Below, one piece after another: positions 6,699-32,074 of a DNA stretch of 49,569 nt; the stretch's first letter is position 1, and the number at the start of each line of letters is the position of its first letter. Location: assembly GCF_001528745.1 (NCBI RefSeq), contig NZ_BCNS01000096.1:1-49569 (forward strand), read 5' to 3'. A model generated the notes under the pieces. It did not search any database. It saw nothing but the letters and a program-made list of their open reading frames with translations, and was not told where the DNA came from. The position numbers and the translations under genes were made by a program. The DNA is from Marinobacterium profundum. Lineage in GTDB: Bacteria > Pseudomonadota > Gammaproteobacteria > Pseudomonadales > Balneatricaceae.

Positions 6699-8972
6699 TT
6701 AATGTTGGTGCGGCGTTTCTTTGGGCAAGTTTAATGTGGGAGTTTGGTCAAAGAAGTTCCAGGGCTTCAGCATGGCATGAACATATTCAGTCGGCATCAT
6801 CGGCCACTCTTCTGCACGGGCAATGTGTGTTGCGCCGGTGGTCATCCAGAGTACATTGTCTTCATTTTGAATCGACTGATTGTCGTCCGTGTAGGCTTTG
6901 AGCCCCGTATCGGTTTTTGCCTGATTGGGGTATTTGCCTTCAGGGAAGCGTTCTTCAGGGTTGTATTGCGTTACCCAGATTTGCTTGTCCATAAAGTTCA
7001 CCCGCTTGTACAGCCATTCATCCGGACTGAATAACGCCCCCTTGGCGATGGGATGAGTGCCGCCAGCAAACGGAATAACCTGATACGACACCGGGTTCCC
7101 CATGCGGTTTTCTTTATTGGTGTTGGTCATCAGACGAATGGTCGACGGATCAAATTTCTGAATCGCTTCCTGCTCGTTTGGCACGATCCGTTCATTGGTG
7201 GTCATGACACTTTTGCGAGGGCCACCTGCGGTGTTTTTCGCCACTACAGGGTCGATCTCCATCAACGAGTTTTGCTCGCCATCAACGTCCAGATCCAATC
7301 GGAAATTATAGATATGCTGGTGCGTGGTTCCGACGATGTTGTGGTCAATCAGGGTGCCATAACGCGTGTCCTCTTTTGCGGTGGCATCGTGCATGGTACG
7401 CGCGTTAACACCTTTGACTGCTTCGATTCCGGACGCGCCCACATCCAGCTTGATAGTGCCATTGGCCAGTAACACCCAATCAAACATGTAGTCGTAGTTG
7501 CCAATAGTGCTGATCCAGCGCACCACTAATTCACGACGGGCGCGGCTTTCATTGCGAGAGTCGCCCTTCATTTTATAGTGCTTGTATTCAGGGCCTGCGT
7601 AGCGCTCAAAAATGGCGATGGCGTTGGGAATGGTATAAGGCTCACCATTGCTGTCGGCGACGGTCGCAGGGAAAAGCCTGGCGTTCGTCGGCACATCTGA
7701 TCCGAGTTCCAGCGGCGAGGTTAAAACGCCCATGCCATAATCACCCGAGTCCAGATACGCCTTGAAATACCAGCCTGTATCCGGGTCGCCATAGGGAACG
7801 ATCATGCCACCGAGGGAGCCTTCATACATCACTTTGCGTTTGGTGCCACCATCGTTATAGGTCAAGGTGGAAAGTACAAGACCCACCCGCGAATCCAGCT
7901 TCAGGTGGAAGTCCCAGTTTTGCCAATGCACCATATTGCCATTCATGCTGTAGTTAGGGCCTTGCGGCTCACTCACGATCAGCGGTTTTACCAGCGCTTT
8001 CTCTTTTAAGTCTCGGCCATCGTAGGGACGTGGCGTCAGGGGAACCGGGATCACACCGTCGTCCTCGATCTTCAAGACGGACTCGGTTTCCAGGTCGACC
8101 ACCGCCACCAAACCTTCAATGGGGTGGGCCCAAAAGTTGCCATCACCAACATTCAGGTAAGACACTACTTTAAGCAGGCGCTGCTCTTGCTTCAAACCAT
8201 CGGCTTCTTCAAAGTAACCGACAGTGAGCGGGGTCGCGATGACTTTACTCACATCATGAATATCGCGTTTCGCCAGAGCTTGTGCATATGCCGGGCTGTT
8301 TTCGATGACCTTTTGCACCGTGACCATATCATCCAGTATCACCATGCCATGGGCACCTTCGATAGGCTCCCAGCGTGTCACCGTTTTGCTGCCAAGGTCT
8401 ACGGTGCCTTCAATGACCTGTTTTCCATCCAGAACCGTAAAGTTGGCCAGGCGCTGGAAGGTCTGGTTGCCGCCAAAGGTCCAGTCCCAGACCCTGGCTT
8501 TGTCCTGCTCGGCCAACAGGATTTCCGTAAAACGCAAATTATCCTTGTAATGTGCCGATTGCCTGACCACCTGGCTTGCCAAAGCGATTTCATCGGCACT
8601 CAATGGATCCATCGGATGCACACCTGCGCTCACGGCAAAAGTTTGTAACAGCTGGTTTTGCAAAACTTCGTTGGCAAACTGACTGTCTACCAGAACCTGG
8701 CCATTCTCGACCTTGATAGGCGCCATCAAGTCGATAATTTTGCCATTCACTTCAGCCTGTCTTTCTCCAACGGTAGCCCTGATATGCACCTCACCCTTGT
8801 TGATATGTACCTGCTGCGCATCCTGGTCAAAAAACATGGAGGCTCCCGTGCTCTCCAACGACGACTCCAGCGTGATGTACTCCACCGGACTACCGTGGCC
8901 AAGAACCACAGGGCTGCTTAATGCACCACATAGCATGAGCGCTTTGACCAGCGCCTTTGGTTTAAACGTCAT
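6699..8972 (-). CDS. tynA: Primary-amine oxidase (copper/TPQ amine oxidase), periplasmic
   Basis: This 757-aa enzyme, the same length as E. coli TynA, oxidises primary amines such as tyramine or phenylethylamine to aldehydes with release of ammonia and peroxide. An N-terminal signal peptide (about residues 1-25, ending near LGHG) sends it to the periplasm. The TPQ cofactor motif TIGNYDY is present (the first Tyr of NYDY is modified), as are the copper ligands HQH in GTTHQHIYNF and the third His in TTGATHIARAEEWP. Overall resemblance to the enterobacterial enzyme is very high, including the MHDxTAKxDTRYGTLIDHN stretch. The gene ends with a clear terminator and is divergent from an AraC regulator that probably controls it. 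No aldehyde dehydrogenase is adjacent. Confidence 0.96.
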   Translation of the reverse strand: MTFKPKALVKALMLCGALSSPVVLGHGSPVEYITLESSLESTGASMFFDQDAQQVHINKGEVHIRATVGERQAEVNGKIIDLMAPIKVENGQVLVDSQFANEVLQNQLLQTFAVSAGVHPMDPLSADEIALASQVVRQSAHYKDNLRFTEILLAEQDKARVWDWTFGGNQTFQRLANFTVLDGKQVIEGTVDLGSKTVTRWEPIEGAHGMVILDDMVTVQKVIENSPAYAQALAKRDIHDVSKVIATPLTVGYFEEADGLKQEQRLLKVVSYLNVGDGNFWAHPIEGLVAVVDLETESVLKIEDDGVIPVPLTPRPYDGRDLKEKALVKPLIVSEPQGPNYSMNGNMVHWQNWDFHLKLDSRVGLVLSTLTYNDGGTKRKVMYEGSLGGMIVPYGDPDTGWYFKAYLDSGDYGMGVLTSPLELGSDVPTNARLFPATVADSNGEPYTIPNAIAIFERYAGPEYKHYKMKGDSRNESRARRELVVRWISTIGNYDYMFDWVLLANGTIKLDVGASGIEAVKGVNARTMHDATAKEDTRYGTLIDHNIVGTTHQHIYNFRLDLDVDGEQNSLMEIDPVVAKNTAGGPRKSVMTTNERIVPNEQEAIQKFDPSTIRLMTNTNKENRMGNPVSYQVIPFAGGTHPIAKGALFSPDEWLYKRVNFMDKQIWVTQYNPEERFPEGKYPNQAKTDTGLKAYTDDNQSIQNEDNVLWMTTGATHIARAEEWPMMPTEYVHAMLKPWNFFDQTPTLNLPKETPHQH

Positions 8973-10122: not shown

Positions 10123-13100
10123 TCAGTTTGCATCCGTTTTTTGGCTCAGCTGTTCGAGCAGCGTCCTGGCCGCCAGCAGATCGGTGCTATCAAAACCTTC
10201 ATCGAACAAACTGTAACGCGAGGCCAGTAACTCAAGGGCTTCCCGCCTCTTGGCCCCCTGCTCGCCCCCGGACAAAAGCCGGGCAAGGTCGACCGCAGCG
10301 CGCAGCTCCAGCGAGCGGCTTCCCTGTTTGGCGGCCAGCGCTATGGCCTGCTGCAGGTAATTTAGCGCGACTTCAGGCTGCTGCCGCTGCAACAGCCCCT
10401 TCAGCCGATAAAGCTCCGGCGTATATAAATGCTCGCCGGTCCGTTTGACGCAGTCCAGAGCCTCATCCAGCACCGTTAACGCCTCCTGCTCCTGACCAGC
10501 CTTGCCGAGGGCGTCGGCCAGCAGTGCCATAAAGTAGGGTTTGAGAAACTCGCCTCCAGTGGCCTGGTAATCCTGCATCCCCTGGCGAATGATCCCAATG
10601 CCCTCAGCCGACGCGCCCTGCTCAACCAGGGCCCAGCCGCGCAGGATACTGGCGCGGGCATGCCAATAGGGGAAACCCTGCTCGGTCGCAAGCTCAATAA
10701 CCGACTCGGCCCACTCCCGCGCCTCTGAAACTTCACCGCGCTGGTGATGCAGCTCCGCCCTAAAGATCATCGGATCCGCCAGGGTATAAGGGTTGGGAAC
10801 CTCCTGTGCCAGTTCCAGCGCATCCAGACAGCGCCTCAGCGCCTGATCGGGAAAACCGCGGAACCACAGGGTCGAGGCGCCGATAATCCGCCCCAGAATT
10901 CCGGGCTCGATGCCGTACACAAAGGCATGGCTAGCATGTTCGTGCGCATCATAGAGCGCCAGCACCTGGTCACAGTGTTTTTGCGCAGCATTCAGCTGGC
11001 CGCGAAACAGCGAAGTCGCCCCCAGGGCAGCATGGGCCTGCACCAGCAGGGCCGGGTCTGCTGCTGCCTGCGCCATAACCAGCAGTTGTTCGGCCATGGC
11101 CTGGGCGGCACCGAAATCGGCCCTCAGGGTATAAAACCGGCGCAATGCCACCAGCGCGGAAAACAGCGGCTTGCTGTCACCAAGCTCCCGCGCAAGGGTC
11201 ATGGCCCGGGTAAAGCTCGTTTCAACCTCAGTGGCGCCAAAGCCGCGCACCGCCATCCAGACATGCCCCAGGCTGATCTCCAGCTGCAGCTCCAGCTCTG
11301 CCCGCCTCGACGTATCGGGCAGTGCCGGCAGCAGGCCCTGCGCCTGGCGCAGGTGCGCCAGCGCCTCCTTGCTGGCGGAGCGGTGCATCGCCTGATCTGC
11401 GGCCCGCAGCAGATATTCCACCGCCTTGCCGGCGTTACCACTGCAACTGTAATGGTGCGCAAGCTCGCTGCAGCGATCATCCAGACTGGCGCTGAAGAGG
11501 GTTTCAATCGCCTGGGCCGTGCGTTCATGCAGCCGGCTGCGCCGCTCCTGCAACAGAGAGCCGTAGGCCACTTCCTGGGTCAGGCCATGCTTGAAGGTGT
11601 ACTCGACTTCCGGAAAAGCCGGGCGTTCATACAGAAACTCTCCCGCCTGCAGACGTGACAGCCCCCGTTTCAGATCGTCATCCGGCGGCCCGACCACCTG
11701 CTGCACCAGACTCCAGGGGAAATCCTTGCCGATCACTGCAAGAGTCTGCAACAGGGCCTTCTCGGCCATGGCCAGGCGGTCAATACGTGCACTCAGAACC
11801 CCCTGTACCGTAGTCGGTATATGCAGATCCGCCGGCGCCTGCTGTAGCTGAAAATTACCCGCGCTGCCACTGAGCACGCCTTCCTCCACCAGGGTCTGCA
11901 CCACTTCCTCCAGAAAGAAGGGATTGCCTTCGGTCTGGGTCATGATCAGTGGCTTGAGCGCCGCCAGGGATGCATCGTCCCCCAGCAGGGCGGCGAGCAG
12001 CTCCTGCGCCTCTATCGGCCCCAGCGGGTCGAGGCGTAGCTGGGTATAGCAGCTTTTCTGGCCCCAGTCGTGCTGGTATTCGGGTCTATAGTTCACCAGT
12101 AGCAACATGCGAGCAGCGGGCACACCGTCACTGAGGGTTCTGAGGAAAGCTTCGGTTTCGCGATCCAGCCATTGCAGATCCTCGAAAATCAGTACCAGCG
12201 GCTGATCGAGGCTCTCATGCACCAGCAACTGGCGGATCGCCTCGAAGGTGCGCTGTCTCCGCACCTGCCCATCCATCTGCCGCAACGCTGAATCGGCCTC
12301 GGTCACCCCCAGCAGGTAGAACAGGTAGGGCAGACTGCCTTCCAGGCTGCGATCCAGCGTCAGCACCTTGCCGGTGATTTTTTCACGCCGCTGCCGTTCA
12401 TCATCCTTGGGCCCAATCTGCAGGTAATTCTTCAGCAACTCGATCAGCGGGAGGCACGCAAAGGCCTTGCCGTGGGAAACCGAAAAGGTCTCCAGTACTC
12501 GACAGGACTGCTGCGCGCGATGCTTGAACTCGTAATACAGCCGCGACTTACCGACACCCGGCTCCCCCACCACACCGACTATTTGCCCCTGACCACTGCA
12601 GGCCTTATCCAGCGCCTGCTGTAGCTGCACCATTTCGCCCCGGCGACCGACAAAGCGTGCCAGCCCCCGGTGCGCGGCTACCTCCAGCCGGGTTCGCAGG
12701 GCGCCGAGCCCCTGCAGTTCATACACAGCCAAAGGCTCGGACAGGCCCTTGATGCGAGTTTCTCCCAATGGCTTGAAGTTGAAGTACCCCTCTGTGAGGC
12801 GATGGCTCGCTTCGCTCACCAGGATGGTGCCGGGGGTAGCAATACCCTCCATGCGCGCGGCTATGTTGATGGTATTGCCCACTGGGTCGTAATCCGTGTG
12901 CAAGTCATCGGTACGAATTTCCCGCACCACCACTTCACCGCTGTGAATACCCACCCGCACCTGCAGCGCAATGCCTTGCTCCAGCCGCAGGCGATCGCTG
13001 TGATGGCGTATCGTTTCCTGCATGCGCAGCGCCGCATAGAGTGCGCGTCTTGGATGGTCTTCGTGGGCGATGGGTGCCCCGAACAGCGCCAGAATGCCAT

Positions 13101-13539
13101 CACCCAGAGACTTGGCGACATAGCCCTCGTAGTGATGCACAGCTTCCATCATCAGCTCGAGTACCGGGTCGATTAGTCGGCGCGCCTCTTCCGGATCCAG
13201 ATCCTGAATCAGTGCTGTGGAGCCGGTCATGTCCGCGAACAGCACTGTAATGGTCTTGCGCTCGCCGCCATTGCCACCGCGCGCCTGGCGGGCACTTTGC
13301 TCTGCCAGTATCCGCTGGGCCAGATGCGGCGGGGTATAGTGAATGGGCGCTGCGGTAGTGGCGGCCGGCAACGCCTCGGGGGCCGCATCTTCCAGCGCGA
13401 TACCGCAGGCATTACAGAAACGGGCAGTCGGACTCACGACCTGACCACAGCCCGGGCAGCAGCGCGCCATGCGGGTACCGCAGTGCTCGCAAAAACGGGC
13501 GCCGGTTATATTGTCCTGGCCACAGTCAGTGCAACGCAT
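10123..13539 (-). CDS. Zinc-ribbon, class III nucleotidyl cyclase, AAA-type ATPase, TPR protein
   Basis: This 1138-aa cytoplasmic signalling protein has four parts. Two zinc ribbons occupy residues 1-45 (C3, C6, C17, C20; then C28/C31 and C42/C45). The class III cyclase domain is at about 95-277, with metal ligands D103 and D147 and transition-state residues N225 and R229 in GNTINIAARM. A STAND/AAA-type ATPase follows, with Walker A GEPGVGKS (325-332) and Walker B LVLIFEDLQWLD. Helical TPR-like repeats fill roughly 690-1130. The conserved catalytic residues suggest it can make cyclic nucleotide. It lies 87 bp upstream of a response regulator gene on the same strand but in the direction of leaving that cluster. 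No input or partner is visible. Confidence 0.9.
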   Translation of the reverse strand: MRCTDCGQDNITGARFCEHCGTRMARCCPGCGQVVSPTARFCNACGIALEDAAPEALPAATTAAPIHYTPPHLAQRILAEQSARQARGGNGGERKTITVLFADMTGSTALIQDLDPEEARRLIDPVLELMMEAVHHYEGYVAKSLGDGILALFGAPIAHEDHPRRALYAALRMQETIRHHSDRLRLEQGIALQVRVGIHSGEVVVREIRTDDLHTDYDPVGNTINIAARMEGIATPGTILVSEASHRLTEGYFNFKPLGETRIKGLSEPLAVYELQGLGALRTRLEVAAHRGLARFVGRRGEMVQLQQALDKACSGQGQIVGVVGEPGVGKSRLYYEFKHRAQQSCRVLETFSVSHGKAFACLPLIELLKNYLQIGPKDDERQRREKITGKVLTLDRSLEGSLPYLFYLLGVTEADSALRQMDGQVRRQRTFEAIRQLLVHESLDQPLVLIFEDLQWLDRETEAFLRTLSDGVPAARMLLLVNYRPEYQHDWGQKSCYTQLRLDPLGPIEAQELLAALLGDDASLAALKPLIMTQTEGNPFFLEEVVQTLVEEGVLSGSAGNFQLQQAPADLHIPTTVQGVLSARIDRLAMAEKALLQTLAVIGKDFPWSLVQQVVGPPDDDLKRGLSRLQAGEFLYERPAFPEVEYTFKHGLTQEVAYGSLLQERRSRLHERTAQAIETLFSASLDDRCSELAHHYSCSGNAGKAVEYLLRAADQAMHRSASKEALAHLRQAQGLLPALPDTSRRAELELQLEISLGHVWMAVRGFGATEVETSFTRAMTLARELGDSKPLFSALVALRRFYTLRADFGAAQAMAEQLLVMAQAAADPALLVQAHAALGATSLFRGQLNAAQKHCDQVLALYDAHEHASHAFVYGIEPGILGRIIGASTLWFRGFPDQALRRCLDALELAQEVPNPYTLADPMIFRAELHHQRGEVSEAREWAESVIELATEQGFPYWHARASILRGWALVEQGASAEGIGIIRQGMQDYQATGGEFLKPYFMALLADALGKAGQEQEALTVLDEALDCVKRTGEHLYTPELYRLKGLLQRQQPEVALNYLQQAIALAAKQGSRSLELRAAVDLARLLSGGEQGAKRREALELLASRYSLFDEGFDSTDLLAARTLLEQLSQKTDAN

Positions 13540-18168: not shown

Positions 18169-18564
18169 ATGTCAGATTACCCTACGCTCGAAGAGATGGG
18201 CATTAGCTCCTTCGAAGACATCACCAAGTACAGCCTGCGCCGCGAAAGCGATGTGGACGTGCTGAAAATTTACTACAAGCGCCCCAAGGCGTCGCTGCTG
18301 TCACGCAGCAAGAAATTCACTTTTGCACGTCCGCGCAAGTCCATCCCGATGCAGTTCCGCAGCGGTGAAAAATGGGACAGCCTCACCGACAGCAGCCCAA
18401 CGCTGCAGAACGCCGTGATTGAGCTGAACAAGCTGACTACCCAGCCTGCCGCCCTGCCGCCAGAAGACCTGAAAGCCCGTTTTCTGGAAGATCTGAATCA
18501 CCTCGAAACCGTGGTGAACTCTAAAATCGACGAACTGCGTCGTCAGATCGAAAGCATGAAGTAA
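18169..18564 (+). CDS. DUF3461 family protein, copy 1
   Basis: This 131-aa protein begins MSDYPTLEEMGISSFEDI and contains the basic segment LKIYYKRPKASLLSRSKKF followed by a predicted C-terminal helix ending LRRQIESMK. I match it to DUF3461, a small family of proteins of unknown function. It is likely cytoplasmic, with no signal or membrane segment. A shorter paralogue lies at 19217-19558 with the same PTL..MGI start and the same helical end (LNHLETVVNSKIDELR here versus LSHLEKVVSAKIAEMR there). The two flank an opposite-strand small gene. I can assign no biochemical role. Confidence 0.78.
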   Translation: MSDYPTLEEMGISSFEDITKYSLRRESDVDVLKIYYKRPKASLLSRSKKFTFARPRKSIPMQFRSGEKWDSLTDSSPTLQNAVIELNKLTTQPAALPPEDLKARFLEDLNHLETVVNSKIDELRRQIESMK

Positions 18565-18912: not shown

Positions 18913-19216
18913 ATCGTCACCTTCGTTTTTTTATAGCAGTGTTTTATAAACAGAGGCGCCATTCAGGGCGCATGATTGCATCATGACCAGCAAGGCCCGC
19001 TGTGGCTAGATCCAGCCTTGCTGCCTGGGTGGAACCAAGCGCGCCTTTCCCGTCTGCCTGACTGGCATCATCGTTCAGTGGCGACTGGCGCTAGAGCAAT
19101 GCCGCCAAAGCCCCTACCCTGTCAGACGGACCATCATGGCTCTCCCCCTATATACAAGGACAGGACTGCCGCTCAGCCCAACTGCCGCCACCCTTTGCCG
19201 ACAAGCTGGAGATCTC
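18913..19216. other. Spacer between the 87-aa gene and the second DUF3461 gene
   Basis: This 304-bp region lies between divergent genes and should contain both promoters. I see no clear operator or -35/-10 pair. An in-frame ATG at 19136 could extend the DUF3461 protein by 27 residues, but the extension does not match the paralogue. Confidence 0.4.
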
Positions 19217-19558
19217 ATGCACAAGTACCCGACACTCTCTGCCATGGGAATTACCGAGGTTGAGTCCATTGCGCGCTATGCGCTCAAGGAAGGCAGCCAC
19301 AGCGACGAACTCAAGATCTACTTCCACAGCACTGACGGCAGTAGCCTGCCTCACAGCATGAAATTCGATTTCCCCCACGCGGCCAAAAATACCTCCGCCG
19401 CCGAGTTGCTCGGCGCTCTGGGCGAATTGCAGCAACTGACCCGCCAGGGCCAACCCGCAGCCACACGGGAGCAGCTGCTGAGCGAGCTGAGCCACCTCGA
19501 AAAGGTCGTCAGCGCCAAGATCGCGGAGATGCGTTTCAACCTGAAACAGTGGCACTGA
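19217..19558 (+). CDS. DUF3461 family protein, copy 2
   Basis: Start ATG 19217 was chosen because GGAGA is well spaced (19208-19212) and the resulting MHKYPTLSAMGITEVESI aligns with the first residues of the copy at 18169. The 113-aa product lacks most of the basic middle of copy 1 (KRPKASLLSRSKKF is replaced by HSTDGSSLPHSMKF) but keeps the C-terminal helix. This suggests an old duplication followed by divergence. The function is unknown. It is convergent with the fucose dehydrogenase gene 38 bp away. Confidence 0.75.
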   Translation: MHKYPTLSAMGITEVESIARYALKEGSHSDELKIYFHSTDGSSLPHSMKFDFPHAAKNTSAAELLGALGELQQLTRQGQPAATREQLLSELSHLEKVVSAKIAEMRFNLKQWH

Positions 19559-21819: not shown

Positions 21820-22767
21820 TTAATCGTAGAGCACAGCGGCAATCTTGGGCTCGTCAATGTTCGACGCATCATAATAGTAAAAGCCGGTATCTATGATCTC
21901 GGGGAGCTTCTCGCCACGATAGGCACTCAGGGCGGCCTTGACGGTTTCATAGCCAATGCCGACAGGGTTCTGCGTGATAGCACCGGCCATCACCCCTTCA
22001 CGAATCGCATTGGTCTGGGCTTTGCCAGAGTCGTAGCCAATGATGACAAGATCGGTCGCGCTCATCTCGCGCACGGCATTCACAATACCAATGGCAGAAC
22101 CTTCGTTGGTGCCAAACATGCCAGAAAGGCCCGGGTTCGCAATCAAAATGGCCTTGGCCACTTCAGTCGATTGCAGCTGGTCACCCTGGCCATACTGCAC
22201 CGAGACCACTTCAACATCCGGATAGGCCTCTGCAATGCGGTTGAGGAAACCGTCGCGACGGTCGATGCCAGTACGGCTGGTCTGGTCATGGGCGACCACT
22301 GCCACTTTCCCTGCCCCGCCAATGAATTCCGCCATCTTGTCTGCGGCCAGCGCCGCCGCCGCGACATTGTCAGTCGTGGCGGTGGTTACCGGGATATCGC
22401 TCTCCACACCGCTATCAAAGGCGACGACCGAGATACCCGCCTCGGCAGCCTTGCGCAGCAGCGGGATGGCAGCCTGACTATCGAGGGCGGCAAAGCCAAT
22501 GGCGCTGGGCTTGTTGGCCAGCGCCGCGGCAAGCATGTCGATCTGACGATCCACCATAGTTTCACTGTCAGGACCTTCAAAAGTGACCCGCACATCAAAT
22601 TCTGCAGCCGCCTGATCAGCACCTAATTTCACAGCCTGCCAGAATTGATGCTGAAATCCTTTTGAAATCAGCGGGATATAAATTTCTTCCTGGGCCATAG
22701 CAGCAGGAGCGGTAACGCTCAGAGTGATTGCACCAATAACGCCAAGTAGCGTGCGACGTGTCAACAT
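21820..22767 (-). CDS. Sugar ABC transporter periplasmic binding protein (RbsB type)
   Basis: This 315-aa protein has a signal peptide (TRRTLLGVIGAITLSV..AMAQ, cleavage after about residue 25). The mature part is a type I periplasmic binding protein like RbsB, with stretches such as QIDMLAAAL and GMFGTNEGSAIGIVNAVRE. It should capture a sugar, probably L-fucose from context, and deliver it to the permease encoded just upstream. The twin-arginine-like start is short and may not be a true Tat signal. The gene is third in the ATPase, permease, binding-protein order and ends in a hairpin. Confidence 0.9.
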   Translation of the reverse strand: MLTRRTLLGVIGAITLSVTAPAAMAQEEIYIPLISKGFQHQFWQAVKLGADQAAAEFDVRVTFEGPDSETMVDRQIDMLAAALANKPSAIGFAALDSQAAIPLLRKAAEAGISVVAFDSGVESDIPVTTATTDNVAAAALAADKMAEFIGGAGKVAVVAHDQTSRTGIDRRDGFLNRIAEAYPDVEVVSVQYGQGDQLQSTEVAKAILIANPGLSGMFGTNEGSAIGIVNAVREMSATDLVIIGYDSGKAQTNAIREGVMAGAITQNPVGIGYETVKAALSAYRGEKLPEIIDTGFYYYDASNIDEPKIAAVLYD

Positions 22768-22868
22768 GTTGATTTCCTCAGTTTCTGTTTTTTTTGGGTC
22801 GAGGTTGTGCGGGGACTCTGGATCGCCCCCTCACAGGGTTAAAAACTGTTTCGGTTGGTAATTCGATA

Positions 22869-23894
22869 TCAGGCTTTCTTGCGACGCATCATGTCGGCAT
22901 AAACGGCCAAAATGATAATTGCTCCGGTCACCACGGTTTGCCATTCCTGGGCGACCGAGAGAACCCGCAAACCGTTGGTCAACACCGCCATGATCAGGGC
23001 CCCGATCAGGGTACCGAGGATAGTGCCCCGCCCGCCGGACAGTGAGGTTCCACCTATAACAACAGCGGCAATGGCCTCAAGTTCGTACCCCAAACCCAGG
23101 GCCGGCTGCGCAGAATTAAGACGCGAAGCGATCAGCAGCCCGCCGATGCCGCAAATACCGCCGGCCAGGGCGTAGATCGCCATCTTCCAGCCATCCGTAT
23201 TGACGCCGGACAGACGCACCGCCTCTTCGTTGGAGCCCAGTGCAAAGGCATAGCGCCCAAGCACGGTGCGGCCGAGGATATAACTGGCAGCCGCGGCGAC
23301 CAGGAAGAGGATGAGCACACCGTTGGGAATGGGCAGCGCCGGAATGATTTCACCAATCAGGGATCCACGGGAAATCAGGTCAAAACCGGGCGTGTCATTG
23401 AAATAAATCGGACGGGTGCCCGAAATTACCAGCGACAGTCCCTTGAGAATCAGCATCATGCCCAGTGTGGCGATAAAGGGCGGGATCTTCATCTTGGCCA
23501 CAAAGGTGCCGGAACAAAGACCACAGAGTGCACCGGTCGCAATGGCAGCCACCACGCCCAGGGGCAACGGCATACCCGCGTAGGTCAATACGACACCGGC
23601 CATCACCGCCGTGAACGTCATCAGGGTGCCGACGGACAGGTCGATGCCGCCGGTGATAATCACCAGGGTTGCGGCTATCGCCAGCACGCCATTAACCGAG
23701 GTCGCCTGCAGGATGGCGATCATGTTGGAGGTCTGCATAAAATTGGGTGAGACCAGGGAGAAAGCGATCAGCAGCACTATAAGGCTGGCAAAGGCCAGCA
23801 GCCGCTGATGGGTCCCCATTTCAATCAGCCGGGACAACAGGCTTTTGGGTTTTTCGGGGGGCACTGTGGTTATAGTCGGGTTTACGGCACTCAT
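22869..23894 (-). CDS. Sugar ABC transporter permease (RbsC type)
   Basis: This 341-aa inner-membrane protein has about eight to ten hydrophobic segments and the RbsC/branched-chain permease-like signature GGIDLSVGTLMTF. It also has the conserved GGTSLSGGRGTILGTLIGAL stretch near residue 280 that contacts the ATPase. The ATPase stop overlaps its ATG (23894), showing coupling. A basic cytoplasmic tail (DMMRRKKA) ends the protein. The substrate is inferred from the fucose enzymes in the same operon. Confidence 0.92.
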   Translation of the reverse strand: MSAVNPTITTVPPEKPKSLLSRLIEMGTHQRLLAFASLIVLLIAFSLVSPNFMQTSNMIAILQATSVNGVLAIAATLVIITGGIDLSVGTLMTFTAVMAGVVLTYAGMPLPLGVVAAIATGALCGLCSGTFVAKMKIPPFIATLGMMLILKGLSLVISGTRPIYFNDTPGFDLISRGSLIGEIIPALPIPNGVLILFLVAAAASYILGRTVLGRYAFALGSNEEAVRLSGVNTDGWKMAIYALAGGICGIGGLLIASRLNSAQPALGLGYELEAIAAVVIGGTSLSGGRGTILGTLIGALIMAVLTNGLRVLSVAQEWQTVVTGAIIILAVYADMMRRKKA

Positions 23895-25417
23895 TATTTT
23901 TCTCCTGCCAGCGATACGCTAGCTTCACGCTGCGTGGCCAATTGCATGATTGCTTCCTGGGTTGTACCCGCACCACCTGGCAGAATGCCGGTCAGGCGCC
24001 CTTCACACATAACGGCAATGCGGTGACTGAGGCGCATGACCTCGGGCAGCTCGGACGAAATCACTATGATCGCGCGACCCTGGCCCGCCAGTTCCTCAAG
24101 TAGCTTGTAGATTTCAGACTTGGCGCCTATATCGATACCACGGGTGGGTTCGTCGAAAATCAGAATATCGCAGTCCCGCAGCAGCCATTTGGCGATAACC
24201 ACTTTTTGCTGATTACCCCCGGAAAGAAACCGAACCTCCTGCCGGTCAGACGGCGTACGAATACCCAACTGGCTGATATAACCGACAGCGACATCCTTCA
24301 TCGCCTTTTCATCCAGCACGCCCGCCCGGCTGGTAAAGGTATTCAGGCTTGCCAGGGATATATTTGCGCGCACATCCATGCCCGTGGCTAGGCCAAAGTG
24401 CTTGCGATCCTCCGACAGATAACCAATTCCGGCAAAGACAGCGTCGTTGGGAGACTTGATGCTGCGAACCTTGCCGTGAACCCTGATCTCGCCGCTCTCC
24501 AGCGGATCGGCGCCAAAGATTGCACGGGCCACTTCGGTACGGCCGGCGCCCATGAGACCGGCAAATCCGAGTATCTCGCCCTTTTTTACAGAAAAGCTGA
24601 CGTCGCGTATTTCTGCGCCTCGATTGAGCTGCCTGACTTCAAGCGCGACTTCGTTGCCAGAGGTGTCCGGCACTACCAGCGGGTTTTCCTGCACCTCACG
24701 GCCGACCATCATCGAGATAATTCGGCTCAGCGGCGTCTCGCTCGCCTGCACAGTGTCGACGTATTCGCCATCGCGCATAACGGTTACCCGATCTGCAATC
24801 TGCTTTATCTCGTCCATCTTGTGGCTGATATAGATGATGCCCACGCCCTCAGCCTTGAGCTGGCGAATGATGCCAAAGAGTTCAGCGATTTCCGCATCAT
24901 TCAGTGCCGCCGTAGGTTCATCCATGATGAGCACACGAGAGCGGAATGACAGCGCCTTGGCGATCTCGATCATCTGCTGTTTGGCAATCGTCAGAGTCCC
25001 GACAATGGCCTTGGGATCAAGTTTCAGGTTCATCGTGGCGAAAATTTCCGCCGTCTGCTGGTTCAGGGCACGCTCATCCAAACGCCCCAAAAAACCTCTG
25101 GGCTCACGTCCGATAAATACATTCTGCGCAACCGTCAGATCGTTCATCAGGCTGAGTTCCTGATGGATTATTCCGATACCCAACTCCTGCGCCTCACGTG
25201 GTCCAGCCGGTTCAGCCAGCTCACCCCGAACCCAGACGTCACCGCCATCGCGCTTGTATATGCCCGACAGGACCTTCATCAGAGTCGACTTGCCGGCACC
25301 GTTTTCCCCCATCAGCGCGTGGACTTCTCCCTCAGCCAGATCAAACTGCACACTCTTCAGCGAATGCACCCCTGGAAACCACTTTTCGATCCCGTGCATT
25401 TTGACAAGTAGTGTCAT
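23894..25417 (-). CDS. Sugar ABC transporter ATP-binding protein (RbsA type, two ABC domains)
   Basis: I start it at ATG 25417 ([20 protein letters not shown], 507 aa), with GGAGG 8 bases upstream; the TTG at 25432 overlaps that site. There are two ABC domains. The first has Walker [10 protein letters not shown] near residue 37 and Walker [12 protein letters not shown]. The second has a degenerate P-loop (GLMGAGRTE) as in RbsA, signature [15 protein letters not shown] and Walker [13 protein letters not shown]. It powers import of the sugar with the permease encoded at 22869-23894, and the stop overlaps the permease start codon. Confidence 0.94.
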
Positions 25418-25470
25418 CCCGCAACCCTCCAAAACCTATTTTAATAATTATTAGATGGTGAGGTTTCTCG

Positions 25471-26220
25471 TCAGATGGTGACTCCGCCGTCAACCAGCAT
25501 CGCCTGTCCTGTCACAAGCTGGCTTTCATCTGAAAGCAGATAAGCGACCATATGCGCAATGTCGGATGCTTGAGCCAAACGCCCCATGGGCTGGCGGGCG
25601 ATAAAATCTTTCTCGGCCTGAACCGGATCAGCCGCAGCCGCAATGCGTCCGCGCAGGGATGGCGTATCAACTGTGCCAGGGCAAAGCGCATTGCAACGCA
25701 GGCCCTGCTTTACATAATCAGCGGCAATCGCCTTGGTCAGCCCAATGACCGCAGCCTTGGTTGTGCCATAGGCGGTACGGGCAGGAAAACCCTTAATAGA
25801 GGATGCCATAGACGCCATGTTCAGGATCGAAACACTCCCGGTTTGCTGCGCGCGCTGCAACATGCCAGGTAAAAAAGCGCGGCACATGCGGATCATGGAG
25901 GTTACGTTCAGACTGACACTGAAGTCCCAGTCTTCATCTGAAAGCTCGAGTATGGTGCCGTGATGCACAAAACCGGCGCAGTTAAAGAGTCCGTCCAGCC
26001 CTGGCAACTCTGCGGCGAGCGCGTTGACAGCCTCGGCATCGGTCACATCCAGAAAGCGGGTCTCGATTAAGTCTGACTCGCGCTGCAAACTTTCGAGCGC
26101 ATCCAGATTGATATCGGTAGCAATAACCCGCGCACCCTGAGCGACGCAGGCCTGTACACTGGCTCGACCAATGCCTTGTCCGGCAGCAGTAATTAGAATT
26201 GTTTTGCCTTCAAGCCGCAT
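25471..26220 (-). CDS. Short-chain dehydrogenase, probable 2-keto-3-deoxy-L-fuconate dehydrogenase
   Basis: The 249-aa SDR has the cofactor motif TAAGQGIG (11-18), an acidic residue at D36 that favours NAD, NCAG (80-83), and the catalytic set S137/S140, Y151 and K155. It resembles the BDH2/DHRS6-like group that includes the 2-keto-3-deoxy-fuconate 4-dehydrogenases. In this pathway it would make 2,4-diketo-3-deoxy-L-fuconate for the FAH hydrolase. It lies 29 bp downstream of the UxaA-type dehydratase gene, giving a direct hand-off. An alternative substrate is 2-keto-3-deoxy-rhamnonate. Confidence 0.85.
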   Translation of the reverse strand: MRLEGKTILITAAGQGIGRASVQACVAQGARVIATDINLDALESLQRESDLIETRFLDVTDAEAVNALAAELPGLDGLFNCAGFVHHGTILELSDEDWDFSVSLNVTSMIRMCRAFLPGMLQRAQQTGSVSILNMASMASSIKGFPARTAYGTTKAAVIGLTKAIAADYVKQGLRCNALCPGTVDTPSLRGRIAAAADPVQAEKDFIARQPMGRLAQASDIAHMVAYLLSDESQLVTGQAMLVDGGVTI

Positions 26221-26249
26221 GCTTGATTCTCCTGTTTTAGTTTTTCAAA

Positions 26250-27773
26250 TCACATGACTGCGCCGATCTGCCAAGGCACAAACTCTGCCCCGCCAAATCC
26301 CAGCTCTTCACTTTTTGTCTGCTCGCCGGAGGCGACACGAATAATGAGTTCGAACAGCTCATGTCCCTTGTCTTTAATACTCACGCCGCTGGAAACAATG
26401 TCTCCGCAATTCAAATCCATGTCGTCAGACATGCGTGTATACATCTCTGTATTAGTGGCAAGTTTGATGCAGGGCGTTGGCTTGTAGCCGGAGACAGAAC
26501 CACGGCCTGTCGTAAAGACAATCAGATTTGCCCCGGAGGCGACCTGACCGGTTACCGAGCAGGGGTCGTAACCCGGACTGTCCATAAAGACAAAGCCCTT
26601 GGTGTCGATCGGTTCAGCGAAGAGGTAAACATCACTCAGAGGAGCTGTACCACTCTTGGCGACCGCGCCGAGTGACTTTTCGAGGATAGTGGTCAAGCCG
26701 CCGCGCTTGTTGCCAGGGCTGGGATTGTTGTCCATCTCCCCGCCATTACGCGCGCAGTAATTTTCCCACCAGCGCACCCGTGCAATCAGCTTTTCTGCCA
26801 CCTCTTGAGACACAGCGCGGCGGGTAAGCAAATGTTCAGCGCCATAGATCTCCGAGGTCTCAGACAAAATCGTGGTGCCGCCGTGGCGTACCAGCAGGTC
26901 CGAGGCATAGCCCAGTGCAGGGTTGGCCGTGATGCCGGAATAACCGTCCGAGCCACCACACTGCATCCCCACAGTGATAGCCGAAACCGGGGCGGGACTG
27001 CGCTCGGCACTATTGGCGATTGCAGCAATGGCGCGCAGCTCCTCAAGCCCTTTTTCAATGGTTTTGCGCGTCCCGCCCTCTGCCTGGATAGTCATATAGT
27101 GCAGGGCGCCATCTGCCCGAATCGAACGCCCGCCGACCAGAGCATCAACCTGCATCACCTCGCAGCCGAGACCCACCAGCAGAATTCCGCCGAAATTGGG
27201 GTGTCGCGCATATCCAGAAAGAGTGCGAAACAGGGTGTCGTAACCTTCGTCCTTGCCAGACATACCGCAGCCCGAGCTGTGAACGATAGGCACTATGCCG
27301 TCGATATTGGGAAATTCATCGAGCAGCCCGGATTTTTCCGCAGCCTCGGCGATGAAGCGGGCGACCGAGCCTGCACAGTTAACCGAGGTTAAAATTCCGA
27401 TGTAATTTCGAGTGCCTGTCTTGCCGTCTGCTCTGGCATACCCCATGAAGGTTCTTTCATCGCTCGCAACGGGCAGCGCGACACTTTGGCTCGCGAAAGC
27501 ATAGTCCTGCAAGTGCTCTCCCATCCCCAGGTTGTGCGTATGCACATGTGCACCCGCTGCAATATCTGCCGTGGCCTGACCAATGATCTGGCCATATCGA
27601 ATCAGATCTTGCCCCGCCTTGATTGGGCAAACTGCAACCTTGTGTCCACGCGCTACCGCTTGCTGCAGGCAAACATTGGCACCTTGCAGTGCATGCCCAG
27701 CGGTGAGATCGCAAAGAGCAACCACGACGTTGTCGTTTGGATGCAGGCGAATTGTCTCTGTAGCCTTACTCAC
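26250..27773 (-). CDS. UxaA-family dehydratase, probable L-fuconate dehydratase
   Basis: The protein resembles altronate dehydratase UxaA and galactarate dehydratase GarD. It has an N-terminal SAF domain (about residues 1-95, HTHNLGMGEHLQDYAF) and a large catalytic region with GTRNYIGILTSVNCAG, HSSGCGMSGKDEGYDTL and QCGGSDGYSGITANPALG. I prefer GTG 27773 (507 aa), which has AAGGGGG 7 bases upstream, over GTG 27800. All other enzymes of the fucose route are present and no enolase-superfamily fuconate dehydratase is, so this should convert L-fuconate to 2-keto-3-deoxy-L-fuconate. A similar UxaA-type assignment has been made for the Campylobacter jejuni fucose locus. Altronate dehydration is the alternative, but uxaB/uxaC are absent. 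Confidence 0.85.
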   Translation of the reverse strand: MSKATETIRLHPNDNVVVALCDLTAGHALQGANVCLQQAVARGHKVAVCPIKAGQDLIRYGQIIGQATADIAAGAHVHTHNLGMGEHLQDYAFASQSVALPVASDERTFMGYARADGKTGTRNYIGILTSVNCAGSVARFIAEAAEKSGLLDEFPNIDGIVPIVHSSGCGMSGKDEGYDTLFRTLSGYARHPNFGGILLVGLGCEVMQVDALVGGRSIRADGALHYMTIQAEGGTRKTIEKGLEELRAIAAIANSAERSPAPVSAITVGMQCGGSDGYSGITANPALGYASDLLVRHGGTTILSETSEIYGAEHLLTRRAVSQEVAEKLIARVRWWENYCARNGGEMDNNPSPGNKRGGLTTILEKSLGAVAKSGTAPLSDVYLFAEPIDTKGFVFMDSPGYDPCSVTGQVASGANLIVFTTGRGSVSGYKPTPCIKLATNTEMYTRMSDDMDLNCGDIVSSGVSIKDKGHELFELIIRVASGEQTKSEELGFGGAEFVPWQIGAVM

Positions 27774-27836
27774 GCTGAGCCCCCTTGTTCCGAAATTCAC
27801 ATTTCATGTGCCTTGTTGTATCCTCAAACTAGCACT

Positions 27837-27867
27837 CGACACATCTGTCGTCAACTAACATGTTAGT
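27837..27867. promoter_or_regulatory. Probable GntR operator in the fucose divergent promoter
   Basis: Two inverted repeats lie 10-40 bp upstream of the GntR gene. CGACA and TGTCG flank CATC at about 27837-27850, and the perfect 14-bp palindrome ACTAACATGTTAGT is at 27854-27867. They sit in the 103-bp spacer between the divergent UxaA and GntR genes and are well placed to control both. Which one the GntR protein binds cannot be told from sequence. Confidence 0.6.
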
Positions 27868-27876
27868 ATTCAGGTA

Positions 27877-28578
27877 ATGGAAATGAATGCAGTCACCCTC
27901 ACCGACATAGAAGACCTGAGTGGTTCCCTTGCCCAGCGGGTCTACCAGTCCCTGCGCGAAGCCATCCTCTCGATGGCCTACCCGCCGGGTACGATTCTGA
28001 GAAAAGGCGCCATTTGCGAACAGCTCGGCGTTTCGCGCTCACCGGTATCAGAAGCCATAGCTCGACTGTCTGCAGAGGGGTTGGTGGATGTCATCCCCCA
28101 GTCGGCAACGCGGGTTTCCTGCTTTTCGATGGATGAGATTCGCGAAGCGAGTTTCCTGCGCGAGGCGCTGGAATTGGCGGCAGTTGCAAGAGTTGCCGAA
28201 CAGCGCAGCGACGAGCAGTTGACGCAATTAACCAGGAACCTGCGACTGCAGGAGCTATTGGTGGAAGACAGGGATTTTGCGGGCTTCTACAAGACGGACG
28301 AAGAGTTTCATGCATTGCTGATGGAGTTCACCGGCTTCCCTGGAGCCTCCTCGGTTGCATCGACTGTGTCCTTGCAACTGAAACGTGCCCGCATGCTGTT
28401 GCTGCCCGAAGAAGGCCGGCCGGCAGAAGCCGTCAAGGAACATAAAGCAGTCCTGGACGCCATTCGCTTGAGTGATCCTGTCGCCGCCCAATCTGCAATG
28501 AAGCTGCACCTGGGGCGACTCATCACACAGCTCGAACCACTGGAAGGTCAGCATCCAACCTTCTTTCGCACACGCTAA
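27877..28578 (+). CDS. GntR-family regulator (FadR/FCD subfamily)
   Basis: This 233-aa protein has an N-terminal winged HTH (about residues 18-80, with LRKGAICEQLGVSRSPVSEA) and a C-terminal FCD effector domain of six helices with the metal-binding acid/His pattern (D..H in DEEFHALLM and late His in KEHKAVLDAIR). FCD regulators usually sense sugar acids or lactones. It is divergent from the dehydratase gene and precedes fucU and the lactonase gene on the plus strand, so it probably represses both halves of the fucose locus until an intermediate such as fuconate binds. ATG 27883 has a better spaced AGG and could be the real start. Confidence 0.9.
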   Translation: MEMNAVTLTDIEDLSGSLAQRVYQSLREAILSMAYPPGTILRKGAICEQLGVSRSPVSEAIARLSAEGLVDVIPQSATRVSCFSMDEIREASFLREALELAAVARVAEQRSDEQLTQLTRNLRLQELLVEDRDFAGFYKTDEEFHALLMEFTGFPGASSVASTVSLQLKRARMLLLPEEGRPAEAVKEHKAVLDAIRLSDPVAAQSAMKLHLGRLITQLEPLEGQHPTFFRTR

Positions 28579-28691
28579 GACGCCATACCCAGCTACACGA
28601 GTACCGCGCCAGAAAGCACTGGTCCTGAAAGTGGCTGATACAAATTTTCGCAATAAGCGCACCGCAGCGCTGCAACCGATGGAGACTCCCC

Positions 28692-29123
28692 ATGCTGCGT
28701 AATATTCCGCCGGTGCTATCACCGGACCTTCTGCACGCACTGCGTGCCATGGGCCATGGCGACGAAATCGTCATAGCGGACGCAAATTTTCCGGCAGAAA
28801 GCTCCAGCCCCAAATGCATCAGGCTGGATGGAATTTTGGCGACCGATGTCCTGCGGGCGATCCTCGAAGTCATGCCGCTCGACAGCTTCGAGCCTGTCCC
28901 GGTATTAACCATGCAGGTTGTAGACGACGCCGACGCCATTCCGGAGATTGTGGCAAATTTCCAATGCATCATCGATACAACGGCCGATCACCCGGCGAAG
29001 ATTGGCAGCCTGGAACGCTTTGCTTTTTACGAACGCGCAAAATCCGCCTTCGCGATCGTTCAGACCGGCGAGCGACGGCTTTATGGCAATATCATCCTGA
29101 AAAAAGGTGTTATCCAACCATGA
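28692..29123 (+). CDS. fucU: L-fucose mutarotase (RbsD/FucU family)
   Basis: The 143-aa protein has the family core MGHGDEIVIADANFP with the catalytic His at residue 22, and the C-terminal YGNIILKKGV segment. It catalyses interconversion of alpha and beta anomers of L-fucose and would supply the anomer used by the dehydrogenase. GGAG precedes the ATG by a few bases. Its stop codon overlaps the lactonase start (ATGA), so the two genes are translationally coupled. FucU, rather than the rhamnose-type RhaM, is the best evidence that this locus is for fucose. Confidence 0.9.
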   Translation: MLRNIPPVLSPDLLHALRAMGHGDEIVIADANFPAESSSPKCIRLDGILATDVLRAILEVMPLDSFEPVPVLTMQVVDDADAIPEIVANFQCIIDTTADHPAKIGSLERFAFYERAKSAFAIVQTGERRLYGNIILKKGVIQP

Positions 29124-29950
29124 AAATCGATGCTCATCAGCATTTCTGGCAACTCGACAGAGCGGATTACGGCTGGCTCACACCCGAGCTGAGCATGCTG
29201 TATCACGATTTTCTGCCTGATGACCTGAGCCCCATGCTGGAGACAACCGGGATAGACGGCACTGTGCTGGTGCAGGCCGCCCCGACAATCCAGGAAACCG
29301 AGTTTTTACTGTCACTCGCCGAGCAACATGCCTTTATCAAGGGCGTCGTCGGCTGGGTGGATTTTGAAAGCAAGACAGTAACCGGCGAGATAGAGCGACT
29401 GGCAGCCCATCCGGTTCTGGTGGGCTTTAGGCCCATGATCCAGGATATCCCCGACCCTCACTGGATGCTGCGCCCGGAGCTGAAGCCCGCATTTGACGCA
29501 TTGATCGCCAATGACCTGACATTAGATGCCTTGACCCTCCCGCTACACCTCAGCAATCTGCAGCAACTGCTCGATCACTACCCTGATATGCGGGTCGTCA
29601 TCAACCACGGCTCGAAGCCACAGATACGCCAGGGCGCTTTTGATGCGTGGGCCTGTGATATGGCGGCGCTGGCGAAAGGGACCAGCGCCTTCTGCAAGCT
29701 ATCAGGTCTGGTGACCGAAGCGGCGGAAAACTGGACGGCGGAGGACCTGAAACCCTACGTCGATCACCTGCTGCAAACCTTTGGCCCCAGACGCCTGATT
29801 TGGGGCAGCGACTGGCCTGTTTGCAAGCTTGGCGGGGGCTATCAGCAGTGGCTGTCGGTAACCGAGACCCTGCTGGGGGGCCTCAGCGAGACTGACCGCG
29901 CAGCGATTTTCGGACTCAACGCTGTCCATGCCTACCGCATCCCTGACTGA
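29120..29950 (+). CDS. Amidohydrolase-family L-fuconolactonase
   Basis: The 276-aa protein starts at ATG 29120, which overlaps the fucU stop. It has the amidohydrolase_2 metal site HQHFW (H6, H8), a later VINHGSKP histidine and the terminal RLIWGSDWPV aspartate. It belongs to the group that hydrolyses L-fucono-1,5-lactone, and also galactonolactone or rhamnonolactone in relatives, to the free acid. It provides the step between the AKR dehydrogenase and the UxaA-type dehydratase. It is the last gene of the plus-strand arm. No terminator is obvious in the 198 bp before the cyclase gene. Confidence 0.9.
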   Translation: MKIDAHQHFWQLDRADYGWLTPELSMLYHDFLPDDLSPMLETTGIDGTVLVQAAPTIQETEFLLSLAEQHAFIKGVVGWVDFESKTVTGEIERLAAHPVLVGFRPMIQDIPDPHWMLRPELKPAFDALIANDLTLDALTLPLHLSNLQQLLDHYPDMRVVINHGSKPQIRQGAFDAWACDMAALAKGTSAFCKLSGLVTEAAENWTAEDLKPYVDHLLQTFGPRRLIWGSDWPVCKLGGGYQQWLSVTETLLGGLSETDRAAIFGLNAVHAYRIPD

Positions 29951-30148: not shown

Positions 30149-32074
30149 ATGAGCCAGTCCCAGGGTCAGCGCAAACTTACCGCCATTCTCAGTGCCGATG
30201 TCGTCGGTTACTCGCGATTGATGGGCGAAAACGAGCAGGCCACCGTCGACACCCTGAAGGAATATCAGCAGGCCATTGGCCGGGTCATCGAACGTCATAA
30301 GGGGCGCATTGTCGATGCGCCCGGCGACAATATCCTGGCCGAATTTCCCAGTGCCGTGGAAGCCGTTAACGGTGCCGTCGAAATACAGAAAGTGCTGGAA
30401 GGGCGTAACCTGGAGCTGCCGACCGACAGACGCATGGAGTTTCGCATCGGCGTCAACCTCGGCGATGTTATCGAAGACGAGAGCGACATCATCTTCGGCG
30501 ATGGTGTCAATATTGCCGCCCGCATGGAAGCACTGGCCGAGCCTGGCGGTATCTGTATATCCAGTTCAGTCTACGATGCCGTTGAAGGCAAGGTGCACTT
30601 CGGCTACGACTTTCTCGGCGAACAGCGCGTCAAGAACATAGCCAAGCCGGTCAATGTCTACCGGGTGCGCGCCAGCGACATGCCTCTGCCTGCGCACAAA
30701 GCGCCAGCTGGCGCAGGATGGCAGTTCGCGGCCGCCGCACTGGCCCTGGGTCTGACGCTGGGCGGTCTCGCGGTCTGGCTATCTTCTGCCCCCTCGGCGC
30801 CACAGCAGGACGTCGCCGCGCCATCTGCTGCGCCGGCCAGCAAACCTGCTGACTCCATGGCCCAACCCGGCCCCTACCTCCTGGTGGGGCAGCTCGTGGA
30901 TCAAAGCGGTATCGCGTCGGGGAGCGGGCGCATCTACGGCCAGGCTATGATTGATTCAAGCAACTGGATTAACGCCAATGGCGGTATTAATGGCCGCATG
31001 ATCGACTTGGATACCGTCGATACCTCCTACCTGGTTCCCAGGGCGCTGGAGGGTTACCGCAAGTGGAAAACCCAGAATGTACTGGCCATTCATGGCTGGA
31101 GCACACCCTCCACCGAAGCTCTGGTCAGCGCTGTCGCCGAGGATGAAATACCCTATTTCTCGGCCTCCTACGCCGCCTCCCTGACGGATCCTACCGGCCG
31201 TGGTGTCGAGGGCCGGGCCGCCCCCTATAATTTTTTCTATGGCCCATCCTACTCGGACGCCTGTCGCGGCCTGGTGCAATGGGCCCGTGAAGACTGGAAA
31301 GCCCGCGGCAAAACCAGCACCCCAAAATTCGTCCATATGGGTGAAAACCATCCCTACCCCAATGCGCCGAAAAAAGCCTGTCAGGCCTACGCCACGGAAC
31401 TCGGCTTCGAGGTACTGCCGGTTATTGCCATGCCCATGACGCCGGGCGATAACAGCACCCAGTGCGAACGGCTCAATTCCCAGGGGGCTGATTACGCCTA
31501 TCTCGCCAATACCACTGCCTCAGTTTCCGGTCTGCTAAGCACCTGCAAGGCGCTCCAGGTTCAAACGCAGTTCATGGTGAATATCTGGGGCTTTGATGAA
31601 AATGTAATGAAGGCGGCAGGTAACGCGGCCGATGGTGTGGTCTGGGTCATGGGCGCCGCCAAGTGGGGCGACGATGTCCCGGGCATGTACACAGTGCAGG
31701 AAGTTTCCAAAATGTCGGACCCTACCGGCCAGACGTACCGTCCGGTGCACTACATCCGCGGGGTCTGTTCGATGTTTTTTATCAAGGAAGCCATGGAGTG
31801 GGCCGACAGAAACGGCGGTATCAGCGGCGCAAATATCCGCCAGGGCATTTACCAGCACAGGGACTGGGTGCCCGTGGGACTCGAGGGAGTCTGTTCACCG
31901 GCAACCTGGACCCCCGAAGATCATCGCGGCGTAACCCGGGTGCTGATCTATCGCAGCCATATCAAGGGCCCGACCGAGGCGGATGTCGCCGAACTGGTCG
32001 CCCGGGGCATCATCCGCATGGAGCGCGTCTTTTCTGTGGATATTCCGCGCCGCCCCGAGTGGCTCGGGCTCTGA
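30149..32074 (+). CDS. Class III nucleotidyl cyclase fused to a periplasmic binding-protein-like sensor
   Basis: This 641-aa protein has an N-terminal cytoplasmic cyclase (about residues 8-175). Metal ligands D17 (SADVVGYSRL) and D60 (APGDNILAEF) and the transition-state pair N121/R125 (GDGVNIAARM) are all present. One membrane segment (192-212) and an Ala/Pro/Ser-rich linker (213-240) follow. The C-terminal part (about 243-641) resembles type I substrate-binding proteins of the Leu/Ile/Val or amide-urea kind (YLLVGQLVDQSG, NANGGINGRMIDL) and should lie in the periplasm. Six cysteines in the sensor suggest disulfides. No transporter genes for such a binding protein are adjacent, which favours a receptor role. 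It is convergent with the TauE/SafE gene 27 bp away. Confidence 0.9.
   Translation: MSQSQGQRKLTAILSADVVGYSRLMGENEQATVDTLKEYQQAIGRVIERHKGRIVDAPGDNILAEFPSAVEAVNGAVEIQKVLEGRNLELPTDRRMEFRIGVNLGDVIEDESDIIFGDGVNIAARMEALAEPGGICISSSVYDAVEGKVHFGYDFLGEQRVKNIAKPVNVYRVRASDMPLPAHKAPAGAGWQFAAAALALGLTLGGLAVWLSSAPSAPQQDVAAPSAAPASKPADSMAQPGPYLLVGQLVDQSGIASGSGRIYGQAMIDSSNWINANGGINGRMIDLDTVDTSYLVPRALEGYRKWKTQNVLAIHGWSTPSTEALVSAVAEDEIPYFSASYAASLTDPTGRGVEGRAAPYNFFYGPSYSDACRGLVQWAREDWKARGKTSTPKFVHMGENHPYPNAPKKACQAYATELGFEVLPVIAMPMTPGDNSTQCERLNSQGADYAYLANTTASVSGLLSTCKALQVQTQFMVNIWGFDENVMKAAGNAADGVVWVMGAAKWGDDVPGMYTVQEVSKMSDPTGQTYRPVHYIRGVCSMFFIKEAMEWADRNGGISGANIRQGIYQHRDWVPVGLEGVCSPATWTPEDHRGVTRVLIYRSHIKGPTEADVAELVARGIIRMERVFSVDIPRRPEWLGL

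Follow-up and report, generated by a model that had tools for sequence, protein, structure and literature searches.

We found a single gene at positions 30149-32074 of the plus strand of the window (the whole stretch of Marinobacterium profundum DNA analysed here, 49,569 nucleotides long), in which a class III cyclase, a membrane segment, a linker and a type I periplasmic binding protein follow one another, as recognised from the open reading frame, Pfam, solved relatives and full-length homologues in five further genomes. The gene encodes 641 amino acids, and the open reading frame call gives exactly these limits, with ATG as the start codon; scans for promoters and terminators found none. 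The cyclase domain occupies residues 12-169 (30182-30655, plus strand) and was assigned by Pfam (Guanylate_cyc, E 1.3e-10, 41.6 bits against a curated cut-off of 21.9), by the residue checks given below and by its closest solved chain in a sequence search, 3mr7 (2.6e-38). It is followed on the same strand by a single hydrophobic, probably transmembrane, segment at residues 193-211 (30725-30781, Kyte-Doolittle mean 1.99) and by a Pro/Ala-rich linker at residues 212-241 (30782-30871), which overlaps the fast-changing region (residues 176-240). The C-terminal domain, hereafter the sensor, spans residues 246-603 (30884-31957, plus strand) and matches Peripla_BP_6 with E 2e-51 and 176.1 bits, against a curated cut-off of 31.7; it is kin to the binding proteins of Liv-type transporters.

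Six genomes, two of them single-contig assemblies, carry seven intact genes of this kind between them, and an assembly artefact is therefore unlikely. In all seven proteins the top-scoring hydropathy signal is one strongly hydrophobic segment within residues 191-213, and an AlphaFold2 model of the whole protein places a helix, at low confidence, at 191-212. For the sensor, the closest solved chains in a sequence search are the transporter binding proteins 3eaf (5e-21) and 3lkb (1.8e-11), which a profile built from eight sensors also ranks first among solved chains. The models themselves are weak, with a mean pLDDT of 60.5 for the whole protein (ten-sequence alignment) and 63.2 for the sensor (eight-sequence alignment). 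A Foldseek search with the sensor model returned 586 matches at E <= 0.001, headed by 3lkb (valine-bound), 3eaf and 4q6w with TM-scores of 0.51-0.57 and rmsd of 7.0-7.7, and with several aromatic-acid-bound proteins in the first 50; the title of 4q6w, as far as the Foldseek table shows it, reads complexed with '3-Hydroxy Be...'. The sensor fold is thus that of a type I binding protein by homology rather than by the structure models. A preliminary description of this DNA had proposed the order cyclase, one membrane segment, C-terminal binding protein, and had named a departure from the binding-protein fold as one point on which this could fail; Pfam, the solved relatives and the hydropathy of the seven intact fusions bear the order out, and at the level of sequence no such departure is seen.

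The surroundings hold a second class III cyclase of 1138 amino acids at 10123-13539 on the minus strand, one of several of that long type in the genus, with N-terminal cysteine motifs that resemble a zinc ribbon by eye. Two related small proteins of 131 and 140 amino acids, with the motif 'YPTLxxMGI', are encoded at 18169-18564 and 19136-19558 on the plus strand, and other genomes of the genus encode relatives of them at this locus. Upstream of the fusion gene lies a sugar-acid cluster (21820-29950) with a Peripla_BP_4 transporter, a short-chain dehydrogenase, a galactarate/altronate dehydratase-type enzyme, a GntR/FCD regulator, an RbsD/FucU protein and an Amidohydro_2 protein. We take this cluster to resemble L-fucose-type catabolism, and part of it also adjoins a cyclase remnant in genome G006. 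Elsewhere in the M. profundum genome, at locus L137, another Peripla_BP_6 protein (5073-6425, minus strand) is divergent from a class III cyclase (6571-8406, plus strand) that carries KTIGD and YDIWGD motifs and, by eye, a sensor-HAMP-like front; this pair stands next to a gene that looks cytochrome c-like by eye.

The sensor domain and its transporter relatives

Stand-alone homologues, 47-57% identical to the sensor, were compared at 29 loci, namely those for which DNA was fetched, apart from the Azospirillum plasmid matches and later family matches. LivF and LivM homologues adjoin the sensor gene at all 29, and the five loci with at least 13 kb of sequence (L036, L049, L050, L052 and L053) also hold LivH, LivG and an acyl-CoA synthetase. 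By Pfam, one such operon encodes a pair each of ABC ATPases, permeases and AMP-binding enzymes, together with a thioesterase; in the record of Azospirillum ramasamyi WP_111068461.1 the homologue is likewise surrounded by AMP-binding proteins and by what is named a long-chain fatty acid-CoA ligase. Alongside the fusion genes, roughly 8-10 kb or more per side, LivF and LivM were found in none of seven cases. Judged by linked permease and ATPase genes, the fused sensors are therefore set apart from the ABC-transporter substrate-binding proteins (0/7 against 29/29), which agrees with the preliminary description in that cognate transporter genes are absent nearby. A sugar ABC transporter that is unrelated, and that has a binding protein to itself, does lie upstream at 21820-25432. 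A search for Liv-type genes in the window gave only matches of 23-27%, to the ATPase of that unrelated type of sugar transporter.

By its sequence kinship the sensor evidently derives from the binding protein of a Liv-type ABC transporter. The acyl-CoA synthetase genes that neighbour the stand-alone homologues suggest that the ancestral cargo was an organic acid activated with CoA, and it is on these neighbours that our guess of an organic-acid ligand is based; amides, urea and branched-chain amino acids, put forward earlier as ligands, appear less likely in their light. The six sensor cysteines (372, 411, 439, 466, 540 and 582; a seventh, 136, lies in the cyclase) had been read as a hint of disulfides in a receptor. 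Their count and positions stand, but they do not mark a receptor, since Cys 439, 466, 540 and 582 occur in 29/29 transporter homologues, and 372 and 411 together in 18/29; all six are, on this alignment, an inheritance from the transporter family and not receptor-specific.

How far the binding site itself has been kept can be read from 127 sensor positions that are conserved in at least 93% of the 29 transporter proteins. Of these, 102 are kept in at least six of the seven fusions and 25 are changed, among them H248 (Q in six of seven fusions), Y292 (T in all seven), G318 and D321 (S, T, A or I), which, if other type I proteins are a guide, lie at cleft-facing strand ends. On the loss of cleft residues, which the preliminary description had treated as decisive against it, the picture is mixed: most of the conserved sensor positions are retained, and with 25 of them changed the sensor may bind a different ligand or none.

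The same sensor subfamily was also found behind a different membrane module, in two Gammaproteobacteria MAGs (L034:5644-7284 and L035:417-2081). This module, as judged by eye, bears RNVFRIGTMY along with a pair of hydrophobic stretches; Pfam recognises no cyclase domain in either protein up to E = 0.1, and there are no Liv genes in the available flanks, that of L035 reaching only about 0.4 kb upstream. A sensor tree of 38 rows, its root set at the midpoint simply for display, joins the cyclase-fused sensors with the RNVFR-fused ones at a support of 87/88, and the cyclase-fused sensors form one group with 82/85, both values below the 95/80 mark. The RNVFR-fused sensor is probably the sister of the cyclase-fused one, and a single move out of transport, followed by an exchange of modules, is a likely course on this tree.

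Distribution, decay and constraint of the fusion

The seven intact genes belong to G000 (M. profundum), G001, G002, G004, G006 (two copies) and G039, with identities as low as 72%. Among the matches listed in a search of 96 related genomes (E <= 1e-3), the carriers are five of the seven genomes of the genus Marinobacterium and one genome of a neighbouring genus, G039. A search of 116 genomes of the family (1e-50) recovered the same carriers and, in addition, seven genomes from a different genus in which the sensor stands alone. Outside Marinobacterium and G039, no fusion was found in 390 genomes of the order (1e-18), 369 of the class (1e-25) or 398 of the phylum (1e-30), draws that overlap and in which at most three candidates were scored per genome, so that fusions in cyclase-rich genomes, or with another subfamily of binding protein, could be missed; a separate scan of genome contigs extends to close relatives only. 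Among 72,556 plasmids (1e-20), 457 records had a match, and in none of these does a single region span 80% of the query. Two long open frames with a sensor match, L072 (554 amino acids) and L154 (712 amino acids), were considered as distant fusions and set aside, as neither has a cyclase.

Signs of loss are present within the genus. The copy in G003 (L048:6469-7761) carries an in-frame internal deletion that leaves cyclase residues 1-83 fused directly to residues 309-641 of the sensor, the sensor has no match in G005 at 1e-50, and truncated extra cyclase copies lie at L047:9910-10689 in G003 and at L055:7210-7965 in G006. The fusion gene is therefore dispensable in places, as G005 and G003 indicate. 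The genes downstream of the intact fusion are shared by four genomes (M. profundum, G001, G002 and G004).

For nine of the 21 possible pairs of fusions, dN/dS (NG86) was 0.035-0.090 in the cyclase and 0.083-0.205 in the sensor, ratios that are approximate given that many dS values exceed 1. Both domains are thus under purifying selection, the cyclase being the more constrained. The linker and membrane segment (the 176-240 region) are often saturated, and low ratios in the domains together with this fast-changing stretch fit a pair of constrained domains joined by a loose connection. That the fusion is instead a recent, mostly useless joining of genes that is now decaying, as the deleted copy in G003, the truncated cyclases and the bare genome G005 might be taken to mean, is highly improbable to us, given that seven genes are intact at identities as low as 72%, that dN/dS is low for cyclase and sensor alike, that downstream genes are shared and that G006 has two intact copies.

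Catalytic and substrate-specifying residues of the cyclase

All seven intact fusions have D17, D60, N121 and R125, which we take to be the two metal-binding Asp and the transition-state Asn and Arg; among 40 aligned cyclases, four of which are fusions, these residues occur in 39, 40, 40 and 40, respectively. The two positions that specify ATP are different. Where the Lys would stand, all seven fusions have Asp56, and at position 114, where the Asp would stand, five have Ile, G001 has Thr and G004 has Val. There is a one-residue insertion near 114, and in a pairwise alignment it is D113 of the window protein that would fall opposite the Asp of 3mr7; the window protein is, however, the only fusion with Asp at 113, the remaining six having Gly. 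The Lys and Asp pair occurs in 8/40 aligned cyclases, none of the eight a fusion, and of the 36 non-fusion relatives in the alignment 28 have a non-canonical pair. The earlier claim of intact catalytic residues consequently holds for D17, D60, N121 and R125 and fails for the substrate-specifying pair.

According to PMC4215837, ATP cyclases carry Lys and Asp at these positions, and GTP cyclases carry Glu followed by Cys, Ser, Thr, His, Ala or Gly. By the Lys/Asp rule none of the seven fusions classes as an adenylyl cyclase, and the label 'adenylate cyclase' is unsafe because both residues are replaced. Against the guanylyl rule, the first residue is acidic but Asp and not Glu, and the second is Ile in five proteins, Thr in that of G001 and Val in that of G004. 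We lean towards regarding the substrate residues as nearer to the guanylyl-cyclase pattern, short of matching it; with both ATP-specifying residues replaced, they do not decide among cAMP, cGMP or both as the product. The same replacements could mean low or no activity.

This last possibility leads to an alternative that we consider unlikely, namely that the protein is a pseudocyclase receptor, which makes no cyclic nucleotide and in which a ligand-regulated dimer or nucleotide-binding module signals by protein contact. Both ATP-specifying residues are absent in all seven intact fusions, as this alternative would have it, and the RNVFR proteins, with a sensor and no Pfam cyclase, indicate that the sensor can be used without one. 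On the other hand, both metal Asp and the transition-state Asn and Arg are retained throughout, the cyclase is more constrained than the sensor, and the frequency of non-canonical pairs among the non-fusion relatives means that loss of the pair is common in this cyclase family.

In a Pfam scan of 40 proteins (36 cyclase relatives and the four fusions), TPR_2 was present in 26, TolB_N in three and Peripla_BP_6 in four. Relatives of this cyclase had been expected to end in TPR or TolB-like domains, and they do, the latter in few cases; among the other long cyclase frames none matched the sensor, which is carried only by the four fusions. The M. profundum genome has six class III cyclase matches in all and ten cNMP_binding matches, and the proteins with the latter could read a cyclic-nucleotide signal.

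A probable receptor cyclase and its known counterparts

The reading that we favour, and hold to be fairly probable, is that the whole protein is a one-protein receptor cyclase, controlled by a ligand through a periplasmic domain derived from a transporter. The N-terminal class III cyclase would lie on the cytoplasmic side as a homodimer, and one membrane helix with a flexible linker would put the C-terminal, two-lobed binding domain in the periplasm. This domain would have as its ancestor a substrate-binding protein that served an ABC transporter of the Liv type (branched-chain-amino-acid-like); the cargo of that transporter is probably an organic acid activated to a CoA ester, and the ligand of the receptor is probably an organic acid too. 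We hypothesise that the ligand closes the sensor and thereby rearranges the pair of membrane helices, so that the cyclase would be reached from its own C-terminal end and its output changed, the product being a cyclic nucleotide (cAMP, cGMP or both).

A binding domain that still feeds an ABC permease, with the cyclase part anchoring it or reporting transport, seems to us very unlikely. Its kinship to transporter proteins and the retention of most conserved positions could be read in this way, and other Peripla_BP_6 proteins elsewhere in the M. profundum genome make a distant transporter partner possible. However, cognate-type LivF, LivM, LivH or LivG genes are near none of the seven fusion genes, and among the matches listed there is no stand-alone sensor in the seven genomes of the genus; within M. 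profundum the full protein matches, at E <= 1e-3, itself and otherwise only cyclases.

For the receptor cyclase, the traceable kinship of the sensor to a transporter binding protein, the gene neighbours of which point to organic acids, makes the receptor-ligand pair searchable by ordinary binding assays. If the reading is true, the protein would also offer a system for testing how control reaches a class III cyclase from the C-terminal side.

Class III cyclases combine with many kinds of sensor, and to our knowledge few bacterial receptor cyclases of this class have a known extracellular ligand. The nearest counterparts on the enzyme side are proteins with an N-terminal cyclase and C-terminal TPR (in some, TolB-like) domains, numerous in rhizobia, whose homologous cyclase is up to 59% identical; they share with the fusion a catalytic domain that comes first, and differ in that the C-terminal part of the fusion is a binding protein. 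On the sensor side, the Liv-type substrate-binding proteins encoded beside AMP-binding acyl-CoA ligases, as in Azospirillum ramasamyi, are of the same subfamily, but they are encoded with permeases and ATPases and have no joined cyclase, and the RNVFR proteins are a probable sister sensor, likewise lacking Liv genes in the available flanks, but without a recognised cyclase. Among the titles and abstract openings listed in our searches of the open-access literature, none described the combination of a class III cyclase with a binding protein. Bacterial Ser/Thr kinases with binding domains are described in PMC1262709, including a Nostoc kinase with an ANF receptor domain and a Streptomyces kinase with a solute-binding protein. 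They resemble the fusion in joining an enzyme of cytoplasmic type, which is named first, to a transport-type binding domain, the enzyme being a kinase and not a cyclase. Since the joining of a binding-protein domain to an enzyme is already known for bacterial kinases (PMC1262709), we regard the pairing with a cyclase as a new variant.

A further comparison is with an animal system. In the natriuretic-peptide receptor guanylyl cyclases a type I binding-protein fold lies outside the cell, followed by one membrane helix and a class III cyclase inside. The order of the fusion is the reverse, with no kinase-like domain between, and the likeness is an analogy in which no descent is shown. A bolder proposal, which we find doubtful as a whole, is that the fusion is a mirror image of these receptors, a ligand-gated GTP or mixed cyclase with its sensor last, captured from an organic-acid transporter, and that this sensor clade has been passed between cyclase-membrane and RNVFR modules, so that bacteria would reuse transport proteins directly as cyclic-nucleotide receptors. 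If the receptor reading is true, the fusion would be a clear example of a receptor that arose from a transport protein, in the domain order opposite to that of the animal receptor cyclases.
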